Positions 53,463-63,958 of a stretch of DNA of 64,000 nt are shown here, in pieces. Below the pieces are notes generated by a model that was not told the DNA's origin, did not search any database, and worked only from the letters and a program-made list of their open reading frames with translations. The stretch is from Halorientalis sp. LT38 (GTDB taxonomy: Archaea; Halobacteriota; Halobacteria; Halobacteriales; Haloarculaceae), in assembly GCF_037031225.1 (NCBI RefSeq), contig NZ_JAYEZN010000001.1, forward strand, positions 1,178,001 through 1,242,000, written 5' to 3'. A program made the position numbers and the translations under genes. Positions within the stretch are counted from its first letter, which is position 1. Each line of letters opens with the position of its first letter.

Positions 53463-54689
53463 TCACCGCGGGAGGTGCCGGAGCGGCGAGACGCGAGCGA
53501 CGAGGAGGCCCGCCGCGAGCGCGGCGACGAAACTGACGACCACGGCGATGGCGAATCCGCCGGCGAGGACCAGCCGGGGCGTCTGGACGAGTCCCTCGAA
53601 CCCGACGACCGCCGACGCGACGGCCTCCAGGCCTGCTGCGACGGGAATCGTCAGTGCAACGCCGAGCGAACCCCCGATGATCCCGATGATCAGTGCCTCG
53701 ACCAGTGCCACGCCCGCGAGCGTGCTCGCGGACGCGCCCAGCGCCTTCAACGCGGCCAGTTCCTCACGCTGCTGGGAGACCAGCGAGAGCACGAGGTTGA
53801 CCGTCAGCGACAGGCCCGCGAGCACGGCGAGGACGACGAGACTGAGCCCGCCGGCGATCACGAGCGACTGGTCGCCGACGATCGAGCGCAACTGCTCGCG
53901 GTTGGTTCGCACTTCGTATTCCGGGTACTCGCGTTCGATCCGGTCCGCGACGGCGGCGGGGCTCGCGCCCTCGGTGAGCCTGACGGTGAGCAGCGAGGCT
54001 CGATCGGCGTCGGCGGTCCCGGTCAGTTCCTGCAGTTCGCTCAGGTGGAGCGCGATCGTCGGCGTCCGGAGGAATCGGGAGTAGGTCGGCGAGATCCCGA
54101 CGACGGTGAACTGGCGCTCTCTGGCCTCGGCGACGGTCCCGCCGACGTGGATCCGGTCGCCGACCGAGACGTTCAGCGCCGCGGCGGCGCGCGGGCTGAG
54201 CACCGTCTCGTTCGTCCAGGGGCCGTCGTAGCTCCCGTTGGCGTAGTGGACGTCCGACGAATTGAACCCCGATCCCTCGGTCAGTTGCACGGCGTTGCTG
54301 GAGGCCGGACCGCCGACGCCGACGACCGTCTCCAGCGCCGACTCGTTCGGGCCGGCGTACACCGCCTGGAAGGAGAGTGCGGAGGCGGTCGCCACGTCCG
54401 GCATCGCCGAGACGTTCGCCGTCACGGCGTGGGCGTCGACCAGGCCGTTCTCGAAGCCGCCGACAGTCCCCGGCTGGATCCGACCCGGGCCGCCGGAGAC
54501 CCAGAGGTCCCGGCCGGACTGGTCGAACTGGCGTTCGCCGGCCTCCAGCACCCCGACGCCGACGCCGGCCAGGAGCGTGGTCGCGAGCACCGCGACGACG
54601 ACGCCGAAGACGGCCAGCGTCGTCCGCGTCCGGTCGTGTCGGAGCTGGGCGACGGCGATCCCGACCACGGCCCGCAGCCGCGGGATCAC
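53463..54689 (-). CDS. ABC transporter permease, MacB/FtsX type
   Basis: A 408-residue permease with one N-terminal helix, a large extracytoplasmic domain (about 65-265) and three C-terminal helices: the MacB/LolC layout. The GTG start overlaps the upstream permease stop (GTGA). It works with the other permease and the ATPase as a mechanotransmission-type transporter. Substrate unknown. Confidence 0.87.
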   Translation of the reverse strand: MIPRLRAVVGIAVAQLRHDRTRTTLAVFGVVVAVLATTLLAGVGVGVLEAGERQFDQSGRDLWVSGGPGRIQPGTVGGFENGLVDAHAVTANVSAMPDVATASALSFQAVYAGPNESALETVVGVGGPASSNAVQLTEGSGFNSSDVHYANGSYDGPWTNETVLSPRAAAALNVSVGDRIHVGGTVAEARERQFTVVGISPTYSRFLRTPTIALHLSELQELTGTADADRASLLTVRLTEGASPAAVADRIEREYPEYEVRTNREQLRSIVGDQSLVIAGGLSLVVLAVLAGLSLTVNLVLSLVSQQREELAALKALGASASTLAGVALVEALIIGIIGGSLGVALTIPVAAGLEAVASAVVGFEGLVQTPRLVLAGGFAIAVVVSFVAALAAGLLVARVSPLRHLPR

Positions 54690-55921
54690 CGCCTGAGCAC
54701 CTCCCCGACCGAACTCCGGCGGTCGAGCCAGGCCGGGTACGGCGCGGCCAGCAGCCCGATCAGGATCGCGACGGCGAGCCCGTAGCCGAGCAGGAGCGGG
54801 TGGAAGGCCGTCACCGAGTCGACGCCGAACTGCCACGCCGCGACGGCGTCGACGAGCGCCATCCCGCCCAGGCCGAGTACCAGCCCGACGAGGCCACCGC
54901 AGACGGCGACGCAGAGCACTTCACCGGCGACCAGCAGCGACCGCGATCGGGCCGAGTAGCCGACCACCGAGAAGACCGCGAGTTGCCGGCGGTCGGCGGT
55001 CACCTCCAGCCCCATCATCGTCCCGACGAAGAGGACGCCGACGACCAGCGCCGTGACGAAGGCCGCGACGGCGACCGCGAGCGAGAGGTCGTCGGTCGGC
55101 GGCCGCGACGCGAACCCTTCCTTCGCGACGACCGTCGTGTCCGGGTAGACCCCCTCGAGTTGCGACCTCACCGACGGGTCGCTCGTCGACACGAGGATCT
55201 GGCTGGCCTGATCCGATCCGGTCGTCCCCGTCAGCGACTGGAGTTCGCTCAGGTGCATAGCGACGACCGGGAGCTGCTCGCTCCCGGGATCGGTCGCCCC
55301 GTCGACGCCGACGACGGTCACGTTCCGGGCCTCCCCGCGTGCGCGTACTCGAACCCGGTCCCCCGCCGACGCGTCGAGGAGTCCCGCGGCCGCGGCGCTG
55401 AGGACCACCTCGTCGGTGCGCGGTCCGTCGTAACTCCCGTTCGCGTAGTGGGGATCGCCCGGCGTGAGCTGGCTCGTGTTGACCCCGGCGACCGTCTCCG
55501 TTCGCTCGCCCGGGATCAGGCCGACGGCGAGCGCGTATTCGCTCCCCGCGTCGCTCTCGACGGAGACGAGCCGTGGCAACACCGGCGTCACCGCGTCGAT
55601 CCGATCGTCCGCGAGGAGGCGCTCGCGAGTGCGGTGGACGTCGCCGAGTTGCGGCTGGCCGACCTCGACGGTGATCGCCGAGGCCGCGCCGTCCGAAGGG
55701 ACGATCCAGTAGTCGACGCCCTCGCTCTCGACGGTCGCGGGCGTCGCCAGCCCGAGCGCGACGCCGGTGACGGCGACCATCAGCCCGACGGCGAAGCCAA
55801 CGCCGACGACGGCAATCAGCACTCGCCGCGAGGCCGCGCCGGTCAGGCGGCCGACGACGCGGTACGCGGCGATGCCGAGGACGCCCCGGAGCCGTCGGAG
55901 CCGCGATCCCTCTCTAGTCAT
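54686..55921 (-). CDS. ABC transporter permease, MacB/FtsX type
   Basis: A 411-residue permease with the same layout as its neighbour; one N-terminal helix (32-55), periplasm-facing domain and three C-terminal helices. Shared segments (HYANGSYDGP, VVAMHLSELQSLTG) show the two permeases are paralogues. It overlaps the ATPase gene by eight bases. Confidence 0.88.
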   Translation of the reverse strand: MTREGSRLRRLRGVLGIAAYRVVGRLTGAASRRVLIAVVGVGFAVGLMVAVTGVALGLATPATVESEGVDYWIVPSDGAASAITVEVGQPQLGDVHRTRERLLADDRIDAVTPVLPRLVSVESDAGSEYALAVGLIPGERTETVAGVNTSQLTPGDPHYANGSYDGPRTDEVVLSAAAAGLLDASAGDRVRVRARGEARNVTVVGVDGATDPGSEQLPVVAMHLSELQSLTGTTGSDQASQILVSTSDPSVRSQLEGVYPDTTVVAKEGFASRPPTDDLSLAVAVAAFVTALVVGVLFVGTMMGLEVTADRRQLAVFSVVGYSARSRSLLVAGEVLCVAVCGGLVGLVLGLGGMALVDAVAAWQFGVDSVTAFHPLLLGYGLAVAILIGLLAAPYPAWLDRRSSVGEVLRR

Positions 55922-56660
55922 CGACGCGTCCGTCCCTGAGCCGCAGGAGCCGATCCGCCCGATCCAGCGCCTGGCCGTCGTGGGAGGCGATCACGACCCC
56001 CGTGTCCTCGCCCAGCGAGGCCAGCAGATCGAGGACGCGCTCGCTCGTCGCTGTGTCGAGTTCACCCGTCGGTTCGTCCGCGACGACGAGTTCGGGGTCG
56101 GTCGCCAGCGCGCGGGCGATGGCGACTCGCTGGCGCTCCCCGCCGCTGAGTTCGCCCGGCCGATGGTCCGTCCGATCGGCCAGTCCGACCCGCTCTAAGA
56201 GTTCGGTGGCGCGTTCTCTTCGATCTCGTTTGCTCCAGCCGAGTTCGACCAGCGGGAGCGCGACGTTGGCCCGCGCGGACAGCGCGGGCAGCAGGTGGAA
56301 CCGCTGGAAGACGACGCCGACGTGTTCGAGTCGCAGCCGGGCGCGACCCCGTTCGGACAGCGTCGCCGTGTCGGTCCCGGCCACGGAGACGGTCCCGCTC
56401 GTCGGCGTGTCGAGCGCTGCCAGCAGGTGCAAGAGGGTGGTCTTCCCGCTGCCGCTCGGCCCGGCGATGCCCAGGATCTCCCCCGGAGTGACCGCCATCG
56501 AGACGCCGTCGACGGCCCGGACCGCGGGACTCGACCCGTTCCGGCGACCGAGCCGTCCGCCGCGACTGTACTCCCGGACGACCGACTCACAGCGCGCGAC
56601 GGCCGACCGCTCCCCCTCCCAGGACGGTGCAGCCGTCCCGTCCGGTTCGTCTGTTCGCAC
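55914..56660 (-). CDS. ABC transporter ATP-binding protein, MacB/LolD type
   Basis: A 248-residue ATPase with Walker A GPSGSGKTT, Q-loop VFQRFHLLP, signature LSGGERQRVAIARA, Walker B LVVADEPTGELD and switch His SHD. VADEPTGELD and Gln/Leu-rich spacing are typical of LolD/MacB ATPases. First gene of the three-gene operon; the N-terminal 20 residues are an extension. Confidence 0.92.
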   Translation of the reverse strand: MRTDEPDGTAAPSWEGERSAVARCESVVREYSRGGRLGRRNGSSPAVRAVDGVSMAVTPGEILGIAGPSGSGKTTLLHLLAALDTPTSGTVSVAGTDTATLSERGRARLRLEHVGVVFQRFHLLPALSARANVALPLVELGWSKRDRRERATELLERVGLADRTDHRPGELSGGERQRVAIARALATDPELVVADEPTGELDTATSERVLDLLASLGEDTGVVIASHDGQALDRADRLLRLRDGRVDD

Positions 56661-56773: not shown

Positions 56774-57589
56774 ATGCCAGACGAAAACGCCCTCGCGTCG
56801 GGTCCGCTCGGGCGACTCCGAGCCCGCGGTCTCCGGGTCGGCGACCTCGCCGTCGTCGGCCCCTTCCTCGCCATCGCCGGCAGCGAGACGGCGCTCTATC
56901 TCGGCTACCTCGACGTCACGCTGTGGGGCCACGCGCTCACGTTGCTCGCCTGCCTATTCGCGCCGCTGTGGCTCGACGGCGAGACCGCCACGTTGCGTGC
57001 GTTCGCACTCGTGCCGCTCTTTCGCCTGGTCAACCTCGGGATGCCGATCTTCTTCGTGCTGACGCTCTCCTGGTTCCCCTTCATCTACGGCCCGCTCGTC
57101 CCCGCGCTGTATCTCGTCGTCAGCGGTGACAACGATCTGAATCCCCGTGCCGGCCTCCGCTCTGCCGTCACGCTGTTTCCCGCGATCCTCCTCGGCGCGT
57201 GGCTGCTCGCCCACCTCGAGTTCGCGGTCATTCAACCCGACGGCCTCCTCCCGGCCTGGTCGCCCCTCCACGTCGCCTTCCTCGCCGTCGTGATGATCGG
57301 GTTCGTCGGCTTCGTCGAGGAGTTGCTCTTCCGCGGGATCCTCCAGCGCACGCTCGAGTCCCGGATGGGCTACTGGCCCGGCATCCTCACCGCAAGCGTC
57401 GTCTTCGGCCTGATGCACTCCGGATACAGCGACCCCAACGAGGTCGCGCTGGCGGCCGGCATCGGGCTGGCGTTTGGCCTTCTCTACGACTGGACCGACA
57501 GTCTGGCCGCCGTGACGGTCGCCCACGGCCTGCTCAACATCTTCCTGTTCGGGGCCCTGCCGATGGACGTGCTGCGACTGGGCGGGTGA
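56774..57589 (+). CDS. CPBP family intramembrane protease
   Basis: A 271-residue membrane protein of about eight helices with CPBP motifs Glu182-Glu183/Arg187 (EELLFRGIL), FGLMH with His215, and AHGLLN with His251 and Asn255. It is divergent from the MacB-like operon. Some bacterial CPBP proteases give bacteriocin immunity, so proximity to the RiPP locus is notable, but no direct link is shown. ATG at 56774. Confidence 0.85.
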   Translation: MPDENALASGPLGRLRARGLRVGDLAVVGPFLAIAGSETALYLGYLDVTLWGHALTLLACLFAPLWLDGETATLRAFALVPLFRLVNLGMPIFFVLTLSWFPFIYGPLVPALYLVVSGDNDLNPRAGLRSAVTLFPAILLGAWLLAHLEFAVIQPDGLLPAWSPLHVAFLAVVMIGFVGFVEELLFRGILQRTLESRMGYWPGILTASVVFGLMHSGYSDPNEVALAAGIGLAFGLLYDWTDSLAAVTVAHGLLNIFLFGALPMDVLRLGG

Positions 57590-57665: not shown

Positions 57666-57944
57666 TTAGATCAGCTGTAGCGACTCGTAGACGACGACGC
57701 CGCCGAAGGCCATCCCGAGCGGGAGGACGGTGGCGACGAGTGACCGCCGGAGGCGGGGGTTCTCGAACCGCGACGCGTCCAGCAGGTCCAGGTACGCCAG
57801 CAGGAGGACGAGCGCCGCGGCGACGAAGATGCCGCCGACGCCCAGTCCGACCGGCGAGGTCAGCGACGTCGCGCTCGCGGAGGCACTGGCCGCTGAACTG
57901 GAGGCGCTACTGGCCGAACTGGAGACGATGGCGGTCAGTCCCAT
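57666..57944 (-). CDS. Small Ser/Ala-rich membrane protein
   Basis: A 92-residue protein. An N-terminal low-complexity Ser/Ala run (about 8-30) precedes two membrane segments (about 33-52 and 68-88). The loop DASRFENPRLRRS is basic. Composition supports a real membrane protein; family unknown. Confidence 0.6.
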   Translation of the reverse strand: MGLTAIVSSSASSASSSAASASASATSLTSPVGLGVGGIFVAAALVLLLAYLDLLDASRFENPRLRRSLVATVLPLGMAFGGVVVYESLQLI

Positions 57945-58170: not shown

Positions 58171-58824
58171 ATGACGGACGACGACCCGACGGACCGCCCG
58201 GAGAGTGACGGTCCCGACGGGGACGAGGCCACGAGTGGGGACCGTTCGGAGGCGGTTGCGGACGGCGCCTCGACCGGCGACGCCGAGGAATCGGTGGCGG
58301 CCGAGGAAGACGCTCCGGGACCCACTGGGCGATCGGCGTGGCTGGCCCGCGGCGAGCGCGTCCTGACCTGGGTGCTCGCGCTCGCGCTCCTCCTCTCGCT
58401 GGCCGGGGTCGTCTACGTCGCCATGGTTCCCCCGGAGACGACCGACCCCTACACCGAGTTCTATATCCTGGGCCCAGACGGCAACGCCAGCGGCTATCCG
58501 ACGCAGCTGGCCCCCGGCGACACGGGCACCGTGATCGTGGGGATCACCAATCACGAGCAGCGAGACGTCGACTATCGCGTGGCCGTGACCTGGAACGGGA
58601 GTCAGTCCTTCGAGCGGAACGTATCCGTGGCCGACGAGGCGACCGAAGAGTTCCGGGTGAGCCTGTCCGCGCCCGACGAGTCGGGACGGTATCGCGTTCT
58701 CTTCCACCTGACGAACGAGGCCGGCGGCGAACCGACGCCGCCCAATCGGCTGTGGATCGACGTCGGGAACGAGACGGTCGACGCTGGAGACGAAACGGCC
58801 AACGGGACAGAGTCTCCCGAATAG
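58171..58824 (+). CDS. DUF1616-like membrane-anchored protein
   Basis: A 217-residue protein: acidic cytoplasmic tail (1-58), one membrane helix (about 66-86), then an outer beta domain with YTEFYILGPDGNASGYP, GDTGTVIVGITNHEQRDVDY and FRVSLSAPDESGRYRV. This matches the DUF1616 outer domain common in archaea. It lies 98 bases before the RiPP cyclase gene, same strand. Confidence 0.72.
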   Translation: MTDDDPTDRPESDGPDGDEATSGDRSEAVADGASTGDAEESVAAEEDAPGPTGRSAWLARGERVLTWVLALALLLSLAGVVYVAMVPPETTDPYTEFYILGPDGNASGYPTQLAPGDTGTVIVGITNHEQRDVDYRVAVTWNGSQSFERNVSVADEATEEFRVSLSAPDESGRYRVLFHLTNEAGGEPTPPNRLWIDVGNETVDAGDETANGTESPE

Positions 58825-58922: not shown

Positions 58923-60797
58923 ATGGGCGGTATCGTCGCGCTCGTCGATCGATCCGGGCAGGGGGTCGACTCCGTTGCCGTCGACTCGATGGTCGAGGCG
59001 CTCTCCCATCGCGGCCCCGACGGGAGCGACCAGTGGGTCGACGGTCCATGTGGGCTGGGCCATCTGCACCACTACACGACGCCGACGGCCGGGAGGCCCG
59101 ATCAGCCGCTCCGGAGGGACGACTGCGTCGTCGTCGCGGACGGCCGAGTCGACAATCGCCGCGAACTCGAGGAATTGCTCGATCTCGACGCCGGCGTGAC
59201 GACCGACGCCGAGTACCTGCTGGCCGCCTACCGGAAGTGGGGGACGGCGTGTCCGGAGCACGTCGTGGGCGCCTACGCGTTCGCGATCTGGGACGAAAGC
59301 AGACGACGGCTGTTCTGTGCGCGGGACCACGCCGGAATCCGGCCGTGCTACGTGGCAACCGGGGACGGACGGGTCGCCGTCGCCTCCGAGATACGAGCGC
59401 TCCGGCGACTCCCGTTCGTCTCGACGGCTCTCGACGAGATCGCGGTAGGCGACTTCCTGGTCGGAGACCCGGCCGACACGGAGCGGACGTTCTTCGAGGA
59501 CGTGACGCGCCTGCCACCGGGGCACGCGCTGGTCGCGACCGACGACGAGGTGCGCACGTGGCAGTACTGGAGCCTCGACCCGACCGTGGAGATCAGCATG
59601 GAGTCGGACGAGGCCTACGCCGCGGCGTTCAAACAGCTGTTCGAGCGGGCCGTCCAGTGTCGGTTGCGTCGCCCGCCTGAGGGACGGGTCGGGTCGACGC
59701 TGAGCGGCGGGCTCGATTCCTCCGCCATCGCCACCGTGGCCCAGCGGTTCACGCCCGCCGAGACCGGCCCGTTCCCGACGGTTTCACTTTCCTTCGAGGG
59801 CATCCCGGGCGTCGACGAGACCGCGTACGCCGAGTCTGTCCTCGAGACCGGTGACTTCGACGGCCGGTTCGTCGCGGCGGCGGACCTCCACCCTTTCCGG
59901 GACGTCGACCGTGTCCTGACCGCCCAGGAGACACCCTTCTTCGCGAACAGCCTCTTCCTGCACTGGGGGATGTACGGGACAGCCGCCGACATGGACGTCC
60001 GAGTCATGCTCGACGGATACGGCGGCGACGAGACGCTGGGTCGGGGCGTCGCGTATTTGGCCGGGCTGGCTCGCAGTGGCCAGCTCCGTCGACTCGCAGC
60101 GGAGATACCCGCGACCGCCGACAGGCGGGGAGAGTCCGTGAGGACGGTGCTCCTGAACGAGGTCGTTGCCCCGCTGGTACCGGAGCCGCTGTGGCGAGCC
60201 CGGCGACTCGTCCGTGGAGAGTCCGATCCGCTGGCGGATCGGACGTCGGTCCTCAATACCGACTTCACAGATCGGATCGGAATCCGCAAGCGACTGCAAC
60301 GACGGGAGGAACCACCGCCAAAGACTGTCCGGGACGACCACCGCTGGCTGGTGACACAGGGGCTGCTGTCTCGGGATCTGGTCGCCGCCAACAAGGCCGG
60401 GATCGCGTTCGGCATCGAGCCGCGGTTCCCGTTCCTGGATCGGCGGCTCGTGGAGTTCTGTCTGGCGCTGCCCGCGGACCAGAAGTTCCGGCGGGGGTGG
60501 GAGCGATTCGTCCTCCGCCGGGCGCTGGGCGAGTACCTGCCATCGGACGTCCGCTGGCGCGAGGACAAGGCCGACCTGCGCCCGTGTTTCCTCGAGGGAC
60601 TTCGGACACACGACGCCGAGCGACTCCGGAGTCTCGCTGGGGAGGAAGAGGAAGTAGAGACGTGGCGATACGTCGACCGCGCGGCGTTCGGGACGAACGT
60701 GGACGCCTTCCTCGACGGCCGTGACCTGAACGCCCGCAGGGCGGTCTGGCGACCCGCACTGCTGGGATCGTGGTTACGGCGGCGCCGGAACACCTGA
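58923..60797 (+). CDS. Asparagine-synthetase-like lasso-type macrocyclase
   Basis: A 624-residue homologue of asparagine synthetase B. The N-terminal glutaminase-like domain (1-210) begins MGGIVALVD, so the catalytic Cys2 of true synthetases is Gly. The synthetase domain keeps the ATP loop SGGLDSS (261-267), later LDGYGGDETL, and the conserved GIEPRFPFLDRRLVEFCL. Loss of Cys2 with an intact ATP site is what lasso cyclases (McjC type) show: they adenylate a side-chain acid and close a lactam instead of using ammonia. First gene of the cluster. Confidence 0.88.
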   Translation: MGGIVALVDRSGQGVDSVAVDSMVEALSHRGPDGSDQWVDGPCGLGHLHHYTTPTAGRPDQPLRRDDCVVVADGRVDNRRELEELLDLDAGVTTDAEYLLAAYRKWGTACPEHVVGAYAFAIWDESRRRLFCARDHAGIRPCYVATGDGRVAVASEIRALRRLPFVSTALDEIAVGDFLVGDPADTERTFFEDVTRLPPGHALVATDDEVRTWQYWSLDPTVEISMESDEAYAAAFKQLFERAVQCRLRRPPEGRVGSTLSGGLDSSAIATVAQRFTPAETGPFPTVSLSFEGIPGVDETAYAESVLETGDFDGRFVAAADLHPFRDVDRVLTAQETPFFANSLFLHWGMYGTAADMDVRVMLDGYGGDETLGRGVAYLAGLARSGQLRRLAAEIPATADRRGESVRTVLLNEVVAPLVPEPLWRARRLVRGESDPLADRTSVLNTDFTDRIGIRKRLQRREEPPPKTVRDDHRWLVTQGLLSRDLVAANKAGIAFGIEPRFPFLDRRLVEFCLALPADQKFRRGWERFVLRRALGEYLPSDVRWREDKADLRPCFLEGLRTHDAERLRSLAGEEEEVETWRYVDRAAFGTNVDAFLDGRDLNARRAVWRPALLGSWLRRRRNT

Positions 60798-60832
60798 CGG
60801 TGGCGACGCAACTGTTGCCGGGAAAGCAGAAC

Positions 60833-60840
60833 GATTATGC
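60833..60840 (+). promoter_or_regulatory. TATA-like box of the precursor gene
   Basis: GATTATGC is centred 27 bases before the GTG at 60864, with purine-rich GGAAAGCAGA as BRE. Exact leaderless spacing suggests separate, probably high expression of the precursor. Confidence 0.55.
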
Positions 60841-60863
60841 GCGAGAAATAAAAACGAACCAAC

Positions 60864-61019
60864 GTGACAGACGCAAACGACGAATACGAACCCCCGGAAC
60901 TGGTTTCGTTCGGCTCTCTCGAGGAGATCACCGAGGGGAGCAAGGGGAAGGGTCGCGGACGCGGTCGCGGGCGTGGGCGCGGGGCGAGCAGGGGCGACGG
61001 CCTCGGTGGCGGACGGTAA
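60864..61019 (+). CDS. Lasso-type RiPP precursor with Gly/Arg-rich core
   Basis: A 51-residue peptide with a GTG start. The leader (1-24) carries the lasso signature Tyr-x-x-Pro-x-Leu, a Gly, then Thr at the penultimate position: YEPPELVSFGSLEEITE. The predicted core (25-51) starts with Gly-Ser-Lys-Gly-Lys-Gly, then five Arg-Gly pairs, Ala-Ser-Arg-Gly-Asp and a Gly-rich end with Arg. There is no Asp or Glu at core positions 7-9; the only acid is core Asp21. Flanked by cyclase and kinase genes. Confidence 0.82.
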   Translation: MTDANDEYEPPELVSFGSLEEITEGSKGKGRGRGRGRGRGASRGDGLGGGR

Positions 61020-61035
61020 GACCGTCCCACAGTCG

Positions 61036-61932
61036 ATGGACGACGAGACGTATCGTGCGTTCGGCCTGACGCTGGAGTCTTCGATTCCACTCCCGGAACT
61101 GCCACGGACCGATATCCGGGCGGAGCCGACCGTACGGATCGAGCGGGATTCTCTCGCGTTCCCGGCGTCGGAGACGGCCTCGTATCGGGTCGCCGACGGT
61201 GGGGTCTACCTGAACTACGACGTGGGGACGTTCTTCGTCGACGAGACCACCGTCGTCGCCGATCCGATCCGGGAGCCGGACCAGCTCTTCCGTCAGTACC
61301 TGCTCGGGCGCGTGATCGGGATGGTCCTCGTCCTGCGCGGGTCCCTCTGTCTCCACGCGAGCGCCGTCGCCGTCGACGGTCGCGCCGTCCTCTTCGCGGG
61401 GCCGAGCGGGGCCGGCAAATCGACCACGGCGCTCGCGGTGGCGCTGTCCCGGGACGGCGGCTCGTTCGTCACCGACGACGTCGCGCCGATCGCCGCGGAC
61501 GCCGACCCGACGTTGCAGCCCGGGCCGCCGCTCGTCAAGTTCAGTGCCGACAACCCGCTCTGCGCCGTCGCGGATATCGATCCCGTCCTCGACGACGGGA
61601 GCGGACCCGCTCTCGGGAAACGATGGTACCGGGTCGGCGGCGAAGTCGGGAGCGAGCCCCTGCCAGTCGACCGGATCTACCTGCTCGAACCAGGAGCGCC
61701 AGTCGGCGTCGAACCGGTCACCGGTCGGGAGGCGGCGATCGAACTGCGACGCCAGTCGTTCTTCGCGTCGGATTCGGCGTTCCTGCGCGAGGCGGACTTC
61801 GAGACGGCACAGTTCCTCCAGTGCGCCGACGTCGCGGACGCCTGTCGGATGCGGCGGCTCCAGAGCGGGCGGGACCTCGACGACCTGCCAGACGTCGTCT
61901 CGGCCGTCGAATCCGATCTCGAGAGCGACTGA
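61036..61932 (+). CDS. HPr-kinase-like RiPP tailoring kinase
   Basis: A 298-residue HprK-fold protein. LHASAV (His107) and P-loop GPSGAGKST (122-130) lead to an acidic FVTDDVAPI. In some lasso pathways such kinases phosphorylate the C-terminal Ser of the core. Here the core ends in Arg, and Ser occurs only at core positions 2 and 18. Starts 16 bases after the precursor stop, so co-transcribed. Other HprK-like roles cannot be excluded. Confidence 0.83.
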   Translation: MDDETYRAFGLTLESSIPLPELPRTDIRAEPTVRIERDSLAFPASETASYRVADGGVYLNYDVGTFFVDETTVVADPIREPDQLFRQYLLGRVIGMVLVLRGSLCLHASAVAVDGRAVLFAGPSGAGKSTTALAVALSRDGGSFVTDDVAPIAADADPTLQPGPPLVKFSADNPLCAVADIDPVLDDGSGPALGKRWYRVGGEVGSEPLPVDRIYLLEPGAPVGVEPVTGREAAIELRRQSFFASDSAFLREADFETAQFLQCADVADACRMRRLQSGRDLDDLPDVVSAVESDLESD

Positions 61933-62003
61933 TTGCTGAAGGTTCGACGGCGTTCTCGGCCCCGCGTCTTCACGATGGTCGACGGGCTCGGCCCCGCAGT
62001 CCG

Positions 62004-62011
62004 GATTATAG
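62004..62011 (+). promoter_or_regulatory. TATA-like box before the PqqD gene
   Basis: GATTATAG lies about 38 bases before the GTG at 62046. It may give the leader-processing genes separate transcription. Confidence 0.4.
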
Positions 62012-62045
62012 ACGCTGAGCTGACCAGTACCTCTTTTGTGAGATA

Positions 62046-62387
62046 GTGACAGTACGACGCATGGACGGCCGTGATGGCGACCGTGAACGGACGCTTCCAG
62101 CCGATGCGGTCGTCCAGGCGACCGACGCGTGTCTGCACACGACCGTCGACGGCGAGGAGGTACTCCTCCAGACCGAGACCGGCGAGTACTACGGGCTCAA
62201 CGCCGTCGGCACCCGGATCTGGGAGGCCGTTCAGGAACCACGGCGCGTCGCGGACGTCGAGGAGACGATCCGGGCGGAGTTCGACGTCTCGGCCGCCGCG
62301 TGTCGCGAGGACGTCCAGGCGTTCCTGACGGACCTCCGGGAGGCACAGCTGCTCGAACTCGTCGAATCGGACGGGACGGAGACGTGA
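62046..62387 (+). CDS. PqqD-type RiPP recognition element (lasso B1)
   Basis: A 113-residue PqqD-fold protein: VVQATDACLHTTVDGEEVLL, GEYYGLNAVGTRIWEAV and a C-terminal helix. PqqD/B1 proteins bind the leader (the YxxPxL segment) and hand it to the peptidase. GTG at 62046 or ATG at 62061 may be the start. It overlaps the next gene (GTGA), as for split B1-B2 systems. Confidence 0.9.
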   Translation: MTVRRMDGRDGDRERTLPADAVVQATDACLHTTVDGEEVLLQTETGEYYGLNAVGTRIWEAVQEPRRVADVEETIRAEFDVSAAACREDVQAFLTDLREAQLLELVESDGTET

Positions 62388-62830
62388 CGGCGTCGGGTCA
62401 CGCCAGACGAGCGCGACGGCTCGCGGTCCCCACGGGGCTCTTGCTGATCGTCGCCTCGGCCGGCCTGCGGTGGATTTCGGCAACGCGGGTCCGGACACAC
62501 CTCCGACGAATGGCACGCGTCGTCGTCCTGGTGACATCCGGTTCCGTGGACGGACCGGTCGTCCGGGGTGCGGTCCGTCGGGCCGACGGCGCGATGCCGG
62601 GGCAGCGGAGTTGTCTCGCCAAATCTCTCGTCGCCGCGGCGCTCCTCGAGGCGGCCGGTCGGGACGCGACCGTCCGACTCGGCGTCGCCAGGCCGGACGA
62701 GGGATTTCAGGCCCACAGCTGGGTCGAGAGCGATGGATGGGTCGTCGTCGGCGACGACTACCGGCTCGAACAGTACGAGCCCCTGGGAACCCTGGCCGAC
62801 GTCGACGCCGCGGACTACGAATTCGAGTAG
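62384..62830 (+). CDS. Lasso-type B2 leader peptidase
   Basis: A 148-residue transglutaminase-like cysteine protease of the lasso B2 family. Cys77 (GQRSCLAKSL), His111 (FQAHSWVE) and a following Asp in VVGDD form the expected catalytic set. It removes the leader after the Thr-x site. GTG start overlaps the PqqD stop. Confidence 0.9.
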   Translation: MTASGHARRARRLAVPTGLLLIVASAGLRWISATRVRTHLRRMARVVVLVTSGSVDGPVVRGAVRRADGAMPGQRSCLAKSLVAAALLEAAGRDATVRLGVARPDEGFQAHSWVESDGWVVVGDDYRLEQYEPLGTLADVDAADYEFE

Positions 62831-62842
62831 GAGGGACCAGTC

Positions 62843-63958
62843 GTGGACACAGCAGAGTCACCGGATCCGATGTCAGTCGTTCGGGAGTGCTGTCGGCAGG
62901 CGCTCGGGACCAGCCGCGGGTCCCCGCCCGACCTCGACGATGAGTTCGCCCGGCGAACGCTTTCGGTCGCGCGCGCTCACGGCGTCGAGCCACTCGTGTC
63001 GTCGGTCCTGGCCGACTCCTCGGCGGGCGACGTCGCTGCCGTCGCGGACGAACGACGCCGGACGGCGCAGTCGAACCTCCAGGCCGTCGCCCAGGCGCGC
63101 ACCGTCGTCGACGCGTTCGCGGACCGCGGCATCGAGGCGCTCGTCTACAAGGGGCCCGTGCTCGCCGCGAGAGCCTATGGAGAGGTTGGCCGGCGAGCGT
63201 TCGACGACATCGACCTCCTCGTCGCGCCCGAGGATTTCGACGCCGCCCAGGACGTGCTCGCGTCCCGGAGATACCGCGTTGCGGAGCGCCTCGACGGCCT
63301 CCGAGAGGTCGCGTTCGCGCCGCCGGAGGGATATCACGTCGACCTCCACGCCACGCCGATCCCGCGCTACTTCCCCGGCGACCTCCCGTTCGAGGATCTC
63401 TGGGCTCGTCACGTCGACGTGGACGTCGCCGGAACGACGCTCCCCGGCCTCGCGCCGGCCGACCTGTTCGTCGTGCTGGCGATCCACGGCACCAAACACT
63501 GCTGGTATCGACTCTCCTGGATCTGTGACGTCGCGGCGCTGGCCGAGGGCGTGTCGTGGGCAACGGTCGCAGATCGGGCACGGGCGAGCAGGAGCCGCAG
63601 GATGGTCGCATCGGCGGTCGCGCTCGCCGAGGCGTGTCTCGGCGCTTCAGGGCCGCCGGCGCGCACTTTCGACGTCGAGCAGCCGGTCGCGGACCGCCTC
63701 GCGGATGCCTCGCTGGATCGCGTGCTCGACCCGGACCCAGAGCCGCCCGAGTGGGGCGACCGGATCCGCTATCAGCTGCAGGCGCTGGATAGCGCCGGTG
63801 ACAGCGCGCGCTTCCTCGGCTCGCTCGCGTTCGCGCCGACGGTCGCCGACCGGGAGTTCCTCGACCTGCCGACACCGCTGACGCCCCTGTACGCTGTCGT
63901 CCGGCCGGTTCGACTCGCGGTTCGGACGCTCCGTCGGGTCCTGTCGGGCAGTCCGTAG
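62843..63958 (+). CDS. Nucleotidyltransferase of the RiPP cluster
   Basis: A 371-residue NTase_5-type protein. KGPVLAARAYGEVGRR (103-118) then DDIDLLV (121-127) hold the metal-binding Asp pair. Such enzymes accompany kinases in some lasso clusters and further modify the phosphorylated peptide, for instance with sugar. It is 12 bases after the peptidase gene. GTG start. Target on this core is unknown. Confidence 0.85.
   Translation: MDTAESPDPMSVVRECCRQALGTSRGSPPDLDDEFARRTLSVARAHGVEPLVSSVLADSSAGDVAAVADERRRTAQSNLQAVAQARTVVDAFADRGIEALVYKGPVLAARAYGEVGRRAFDDIDLLVAPEDFDAAQDVLASRRYRVAERLDGLREVAFAPPEGYHVDLHATPIPRYFPGDLPFEDLWARHVDVDVAGTTLPGLAPADLFVVLAIHGTKHCWYRLSWICDVAALAEGVSWATVADRARASRSRRMVASAVALAEACLGASGPPARTFDVEQPVADRLADASLDRVLDPDPEPPEWGDRIRYQLQALDSAGDSARFLGSLAFAPTVADREFLDLPTPLTPLYAVVRPVRLAVRTLRRVLSGSP

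Follow-up and report, generated by a model that had tools for sequence, protein, structure and literature searches.

Gene content of the locus

We analysed a 64,000 nt stretch of DNA (the window) from the 3.58 Mb genome of the haloarchaeon Halorientalis sp. LT38, in which positions 58923-63958 hold six open reading frames (ORFs), all intact and all on the + strand. They encode, in this order, a lasso-type macrolactam cyclase, a precursor peptide, an HPr kinase (HPrK)-like enzyme, a PqqD/B1 protein, a B2 leader peptidase and a nucleotidyltransferase (NTase). Lasso-specific NCBIfam models are matched by four of the six proteins, three of which (cyclase, leader, B2) pass the curated cut-off. Judged by its sequence, this lasso-family gene set is genuine and far above chance. 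The initial annotation had seen here a complete lasso pathway; this description fits the enzyme set and the leader, but not the predicted core, which lacks an Asp or Glu at positions 7-9.

The same annotation had correctly listed six consecutive same-strand genes, and the spacings it gave hold to the base: precursor and kinase are 16 bases apart, the GTG start of PqqD follows the kinase after 113 bases (its ATG after 128), PqqD and B2 overlap in GTGA, and 12 bases separate B2 from the NTase. The cyclase gene ends 66 bases before the start of the precursor. A PADLOC scan of six proteins returned 0 matches, and we therefore reject a reading as a defence system.

Precursor, leader and core

The precursor gene (60864-61019, GTG start) codes for 51 residues and matches the lasso leader model NF033521 with 24.1 bits (cut-off 19). 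It is the sole match over this cut-off in the genome (E = 2e-4), the runner-up (15.2 bits) lying within an 831-residue frame, and its leader score ranks third among all matches in the 391 haloarchaeal genomes that form our sample. Since the leader is unique in the genome, we can reject a chance ORF, and the lack of any other leader over the cut-off makes a second substrate unlikely. The predicted leader of 24 residues (60864-60935) carries YEPPEL as its Y..P.L motif and a Thr at position -2. In an alignment with 24 other precursors, M1, P11 and G17 are invariant, while Y8 and T23 are nearly so. The T(-2) rule for the leader cut site (PMC10368454) places the predicted core at 60936-61016. This core, GSKGKGRGRGRGRGRGASRGDGLGGGR, has 27 residues, among them 13 Gly, 7 Arg and 2 Lys, with a net charge of +8. 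Its only acid is D21, and it ends in Arg rather than in a Ser that could accept a phosphate at the C-terminus.

Lasso peptides are defined in part by an Asp or Glu at core position 7-9 (PMC10368454). Because the core has neither, present evidence does not justify classing the product as a lasso peptide, and an ordinary lasso is probably not what the cluster makes. By the same token, an intact cluster without this acid is easily overlooked or mis-annotated. In the open-access literature, searched by title and abstract start, we found no paper on a lasso precursor whose core is Gly-rich or has no acceptor.

The canonical spacing could be restored by cleavage before G17, which would give a core beginning GSLEEITE-GSKGKG with an 8-residue ring from G17 to E24 and a Gly/Arg tail. 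E24 is present and the distance from G1 to E8 of such a core is canonical. However, G-x5-T is a conserved leader element in the 24 other precursors, including ones that have D8 after it, and we regard this early cut as very improbable.

Five GR dipeptide units lie at 60951-60980, and their hexamers differ at third positions only. All of these differences are synonymous, which mildly suggests, given the few changes, that selection maintains the peptide.

The core compared with other cyclase-adjacent precursors

The comparison set consists of ORFs with a leader that lie no more than 2.5 kb from a cyclase match, taken from haloarchaeal loci and 80 genome contigs. The ORFs were picked by a fixed regular expression, which misses precursors with diverged leaders. 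Leaving out ORFs inside strong coding matches and exact duplicates reduced 107 rows to 104, a set that retains several Mesorhizobium near-copies and one probably spurious ORF (L169). An acid occurs at core positions 7-9 in 73 of these 104 distinct ORFs, at 10-13 in 26 and only before position 7 in one. The remaining four have no acid up to position 13: the window precursor, L169, and one ORF each from Rubrobacter taiwanensis (L072) and a Rhodothermus metagenome-assembled genome (L104). The window core tops the whole set in both Gly fraction (0.48) and net charge.

Three further observations on precursors are recorded in their own right. The two bacterial precursors (L072, 7884-8087; L104, 2777-2950) stand beside lasso-type cyclases and have no acid before position 30, one being Gly/Pro-rich and the other His/Pro/Gly-rich. 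In a second haloarchaeal cyclase subclade (L035, 15192-15338; L041, 6612-6746; L164, 9591-9722), the precursors conserve the ring G(R/N)HFS(R/A)VD, which has D8, and have tails rich in Gly, Arg and Asn. A leader-bearing ORF at some distance from the cluster (L206, near 1500, genome G080) encodes another low-complexity core, made of Asp/Trp/Gly repeats (WDWGWGDDD...).

Cyclase and tailoring enzymes

The cyclase (58923-60797, 624 residues) matches NF033535 with 585.7 bits (cut-off 525), as well as PF00733 and GATase_7. It begins with MGGI and lacks the N-terminal Cys of glutaminase-type asparagine synthetases; this absence, together with other PF00733 genes elsewhere in the genome, leads us to reject a plain asparagine synthetase. 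SGGLDSS, D369 and K549 are retained, as are the residues that are invariant among haloarchaeal relatives. In a tree of 93 rows, built by a quick method with SH-aLRT values as its only support, the protein falls inside a haloarchaeal clade (92), with the cyclase of a genome from another genus (G002) as its sister (95). This grouping argues against a recent transfer from bacteria, which we reject; identity to bacterial cyclases is equally high, at up to 42%.

The kinase (61036-61932, 298 residues) matches PF07475 weakly (6.2e-5, under the Pfam cut-off), HprK_rel_A/B far under cut-off, and in a profile search of the PDB only HPrK proteins, again weakly. Its residues H107, K128, D147 and D148 are invariant in all 16 aligned sequences, and a review, consulted in part, names His, Lys, Asp and Asp as residues of lasso kinases (PMC9266682). 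The protein is in this respect an HPrK-like kinase of the kind found with paeninodin-like phosphorylated lasso peptides.

The assignment of B2 and PqqD to lasso families in the initial annotation is borne out for B2 by NF033537 and for PqqD by its best PDB match. The PqqD/B1 protein, a discrete RiPP (ribosomally synthesized and post-translationally modified peptide) recognition element (RRE) encoded at 62061-62387 from its ATG or from GTG at 62046, reaches 71.3 bits with PF05402 (cut-off 23.4) and is closest in the PDB to TbiB1 (E=5.5e-14); with the lasso-specific NF033536 it scores 70.9, below the cut-off of 80. B2 (62384-62830, 148 residues) scores 74.4 with NF033537 (cut-off 33) and also matches PF13471. 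Its C77 and H111 are invariant in 16 sequences, and its profile found no match in the PDB. The NTase (62843-63958, 371 residues) belongs to the NTP_transf_5 family (PF14907, 167 bits, cut-off 31.2).

Distribution among haloarchaea

The union of these genes in an archaeon had been called rare in the initial annotation, which our survey contradicts. B2 matches occur in 33 of the 391 haloarchaeal genomes, in 31 of them over the cut-off, and archaeal lassopeptide clusters are known from antiSMASH mining (PMC12144867, consulted in part). In the portions of the open-access literature that we consulted, archaeal lasso peptides appear in genome-mining mentions only. A cyclase lies nearby in 16 of the 31 genomes, including that of the window and G002, where it is 20 kb off. 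The other 15 have no cyclase in the 20 kb locus and none over the cut-off genome-wide: seven are free of any match to the cyclase model at 1e-20, and eight hold 11 sub-threshold matches, nine of which start with MC, as expected of a glutaminase. These counts indicate that among haloarchaea the pathway occurs without a cyclase about as often as in its lasso form.

Two cyclase-less systems deserve separate mention. One, a nearly invariant system with the core WWDHDDGYGKWS, recurs in many genomes of a single haloarchaeal genus (g3; loci L042, L043, L045-L047, L049-L051 and L053-L055). The other (L033, 14726-18429, genome G322) has at least five short precursors in tandem, most of them with a SEP motif.

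The precursors closest in sequence to that of the window, with 42-55% identity over its whole length, are three from genome G390 and an orphan in G247, a genome outside the 33 with B2 matches. All four share YEPP and FG with the window precursor, and two of the four contain KGKGRG or GRGRG. A search with a Gly-rich precursor-family model found G390 and G247 as the only non-self members, the model having been built from these same sequences. G390 holds B2, PqqD, kinase and NTase, and the lasso cyclase model has no match anywhere in its genome at 1e-20. The cores of its three precursors (L048, 10233-11678) are of KGKGRG, NGKG and poly-Gly (19 Gly) type. In three of the four G390/G247 precursors an acid stands 9-12 residues into the core. 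This position suggests that expansion of the GR repeat may have displaced the acid to position 21 in the window precursor.

These relatives bear on the possibility that the product of the cluster stays linear and carries phosphate and perhaps a sugar, much as an archaeal version of the linear polyphosphorylated peptides (LPPs) of Bacillota, with the cyclase idle or repurposed. The nearest core relatives (G390) belong to the cyclase-less type, none of the 15 haloarchaeal B2 genomes without a locus cyclase has one over the cut-off elsewhere, and the authors who describe LPPs propose a linear structure for them (PMC13381572, consulted in part). An intact lasso cyclase nevertheless adjoins the window precursor, and we hold a linear product to be possible, if doubtful.

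Neighbourhood and surface-glycan island

Downstream (3') of the cluster lie genes for glycosyltransferases, a sulfatase, a pyruvyl transferase and a flippase, and across this glycan stretch the G+C content drops from ~0.7 to 0.43. Upstream lie three conserved neighbours: a CPBP intramembrane protease (56774-57589, + strand, PF02517), a 92-residue membrane protein (57666-57944, - strand) and a DUF1616 membrane protein (58171-58824, + strand, PF07760). Further out, a MacB-like ABC ATPase and an FtsX permease are encoded on the opposite strand (54686-56660); no other transporter was seen close to the cluster.

Much of this setting recurs at the G002 locus, which has homologues of the CPBP protease (48%, beside pqqD-B2-NTase), the 92-residue protein (49%, immediately after the NTase), DUF1616, a pilin-like protein, GT4 (70%), the sulfatase (58%), GT2 and the flippase. 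There, the glycan genes separate pqqD-B2-NTase from kinase-precursor-cyclase. In a further genome (G391), an NTase, DUF1616, GT4 (62%), a flippase and a cyclase cluster all lie within 28 kb; DUF1616 here and its counterpart in G002 are 43-44% identical to the protein of the window. The unit of six genes proposed at first is thus present in full but too narrowly drawn, as the CPBP, 92-residue, DUF1616 and pilin-like genes and the glycan island recur with it at the G002 locus. Among the 146 genomes of the family, GT4 (E <= 1e-60) occurs in four, the cyclase (1e-50) in 11 and both together in three (hypergeometric probability 0.0012, or 0.012 without the window's own genome). In three genera, the pathway occurs in linkage with a surface-glycan island. 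Only one of eight same-genus genomes, the window's own, has the CPBP neighbour, so that no empty site can be read from the others.

The precursor beside the sister cyclase in G002 has the core GTGGGDFDAFATGSP with D8. This locus, and the fully intact window cyclase, would suit an ordinary lasso made from a precursor encoded elsewhere in the Halorientalis genome, the GR peptide being a decayed or secondary substrate. Against this stand the single leader over the cut-off genome-wide, the third-best leader score of the GR ORF across the 391 genomes, its place just 3' of the cyclase, which is a frequent canonical arrangement, and the purely synonymous codon differences of its repeat. We consider such a second precursor improbable.

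Proposed pathway and its alternatives

Taken together, the locus probably represents, in our judgement, a paeninodin-like lasso-family RiPP cluster beside a surface-polysaccharide island, the substrate core of which has lost the canonical lasso ring. The gene content, the missing acceptor, the single leader over the cut-off and the linkage to the glycan island are shown by the sequence, whereas all chemical steps and a role at the cell surface are inferred, as follows. PqqD would bind the YEPPEL leader. The kinase would phosphorylate a Ser of the core, likely Ser2 or Ser18 since Arg takes the place of a C-terminal Ser, and the NTase may then add a sugar or a nucleotide to the phosphate. B2 would cut after T-E to release the 27-residue Gly/Arg peptide with its net charge of +8. 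The cyclase, if active, could join Gly1 only to the side chain of D21.

Such a closure would produce a ring of 21 residues, far outside the norm of 7-9, and we put it forward tentatively. We hold this ring and a linear product about equal. A broader proposal, that haloarchaea have re-used the lasso enzymes for low-complexity peptides, with a Gly1-Asp21 ring on (Gly-Arg)n in the window, an acceptor displaced by GR-repeat expansion and a strongly cationic, phosphorylated product tied to the cell-surface glycan, we regard as rather unlikely as a whole. Closure might also proceed head to tail or otherwise avoid a side-chain acid, with the C-terminal carboxylate activated or a Lys amine in the bond. 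The two Lys of the core and D21 as its sole side-chain acid would fit, but the literature consulted in part offers no precedent for such activity of the enzyme family, and we think this highly improbable.

Several points weigh against the paeninodin-like reading or its individual steps. The kinase scores under every curated HPrK cut-off, and the core start after T-E is itself predicted from the T(-2) rule. The literature consulted in part holds no example of a 21-residue ring, while the intact cyclase 66 bases upstream of the precursor argues against an idle cyclase. The cluster contains no exporter, and an ABC ATPase homologue is found in 31 of 40 other haloarchaeal loci. Finally, the GR core is present in one genome only, which leaves room for decay.

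In its strongest form, decay would make the locus a pseudo-cluster, its core a non-functional relic expanded by slippage. The repeat does lie within a GC-rich genome, and no close relative with this core was found among the 391 genomes, the best non-self matches, G390 and G247, being of another family. All six ORFs are intact, however, the GR units differ at synonymous third positions only (a weak argument, given few changes), and KGKGRG is common to the window and G390. We give this explanation little credence.

On the reading that we prefer, a paeninodin-like cluster without the canonical ring, the locus is a natural test of what a lasso cyclase does: it may form very large rings, act on another substrate or stand idle. 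Haloarchaea, like Bacilli, may pair phosphorylated RiPP systems with surface-polysaccharide loci, which would provide a lead to function.

Comparison with known systems

Up to the ring step, the pathway looks as if it were of the paeninodin type. It has the same enzyme classes as the clusters of paeninodin- and pseudomycoidin-type lasso peptides (C, B1, B2, HPrK-like kinase, NTase), and shares with them the kinase His-Lys-Asp-Asp set of the review cited above (PMC9266682, consulted in part). It differs in the core, which has neither Asp/Glu at positions 7-9 nor a C-terminal Ser, and in the leader, which has Tyr where paeninodin RREs favour Trp (PMC13381572, consulted in part, as for the statements from this source below). 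As to the later steps, kinases of this kind in relatives phosphorylate Ser: paeninodin is modified at its C-terminus, Bsf and LPP at Ser3. A hexose is reportedly attached to the phosphorylated Ser by PsmN. The Bsf peptide, a lasso peptide phosphorylated at Ser3, offers a model for phosphorylation away from the C-terminal Ser, but BsfA cyclises Gly1 to Asp8 (PMC10368454, consulted in part), an acid that the window core lacks.

With the LPPs of Bacillota the window shares an RRE, an HprK-like kinase, an NTP transferase, a Y..P leader and the frequent polysaccharide neighbourhood (PMC13381572); paeninodin and LPP clusters of Bacilli adjoin capsule loci (PMC13381572). LPP clusters lack a cyclase and use a signal-peptidase-like (SipW-like) enzyme to remove the leader, in contrast to the window with its cyclase and B2.

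Among haloarchaea, lasso-type clusters with a cyclase (for example G064, G118 and G103) have the same gene set, and their cyclases fall into the clade of the window protein. Their precursors differ from that of the window: the acids lie at 8-13, and a GS motif is often present close to the C-terminus. Most of these clusters, unlike that of the window, have an ABC ATPase nearby. The Gly-rich precursors of G390 and G247, from another family, resemble the window precursor in leader and in KGKGRG or GRGRG core motifs, although most of their cores carry PIGYG near the end.

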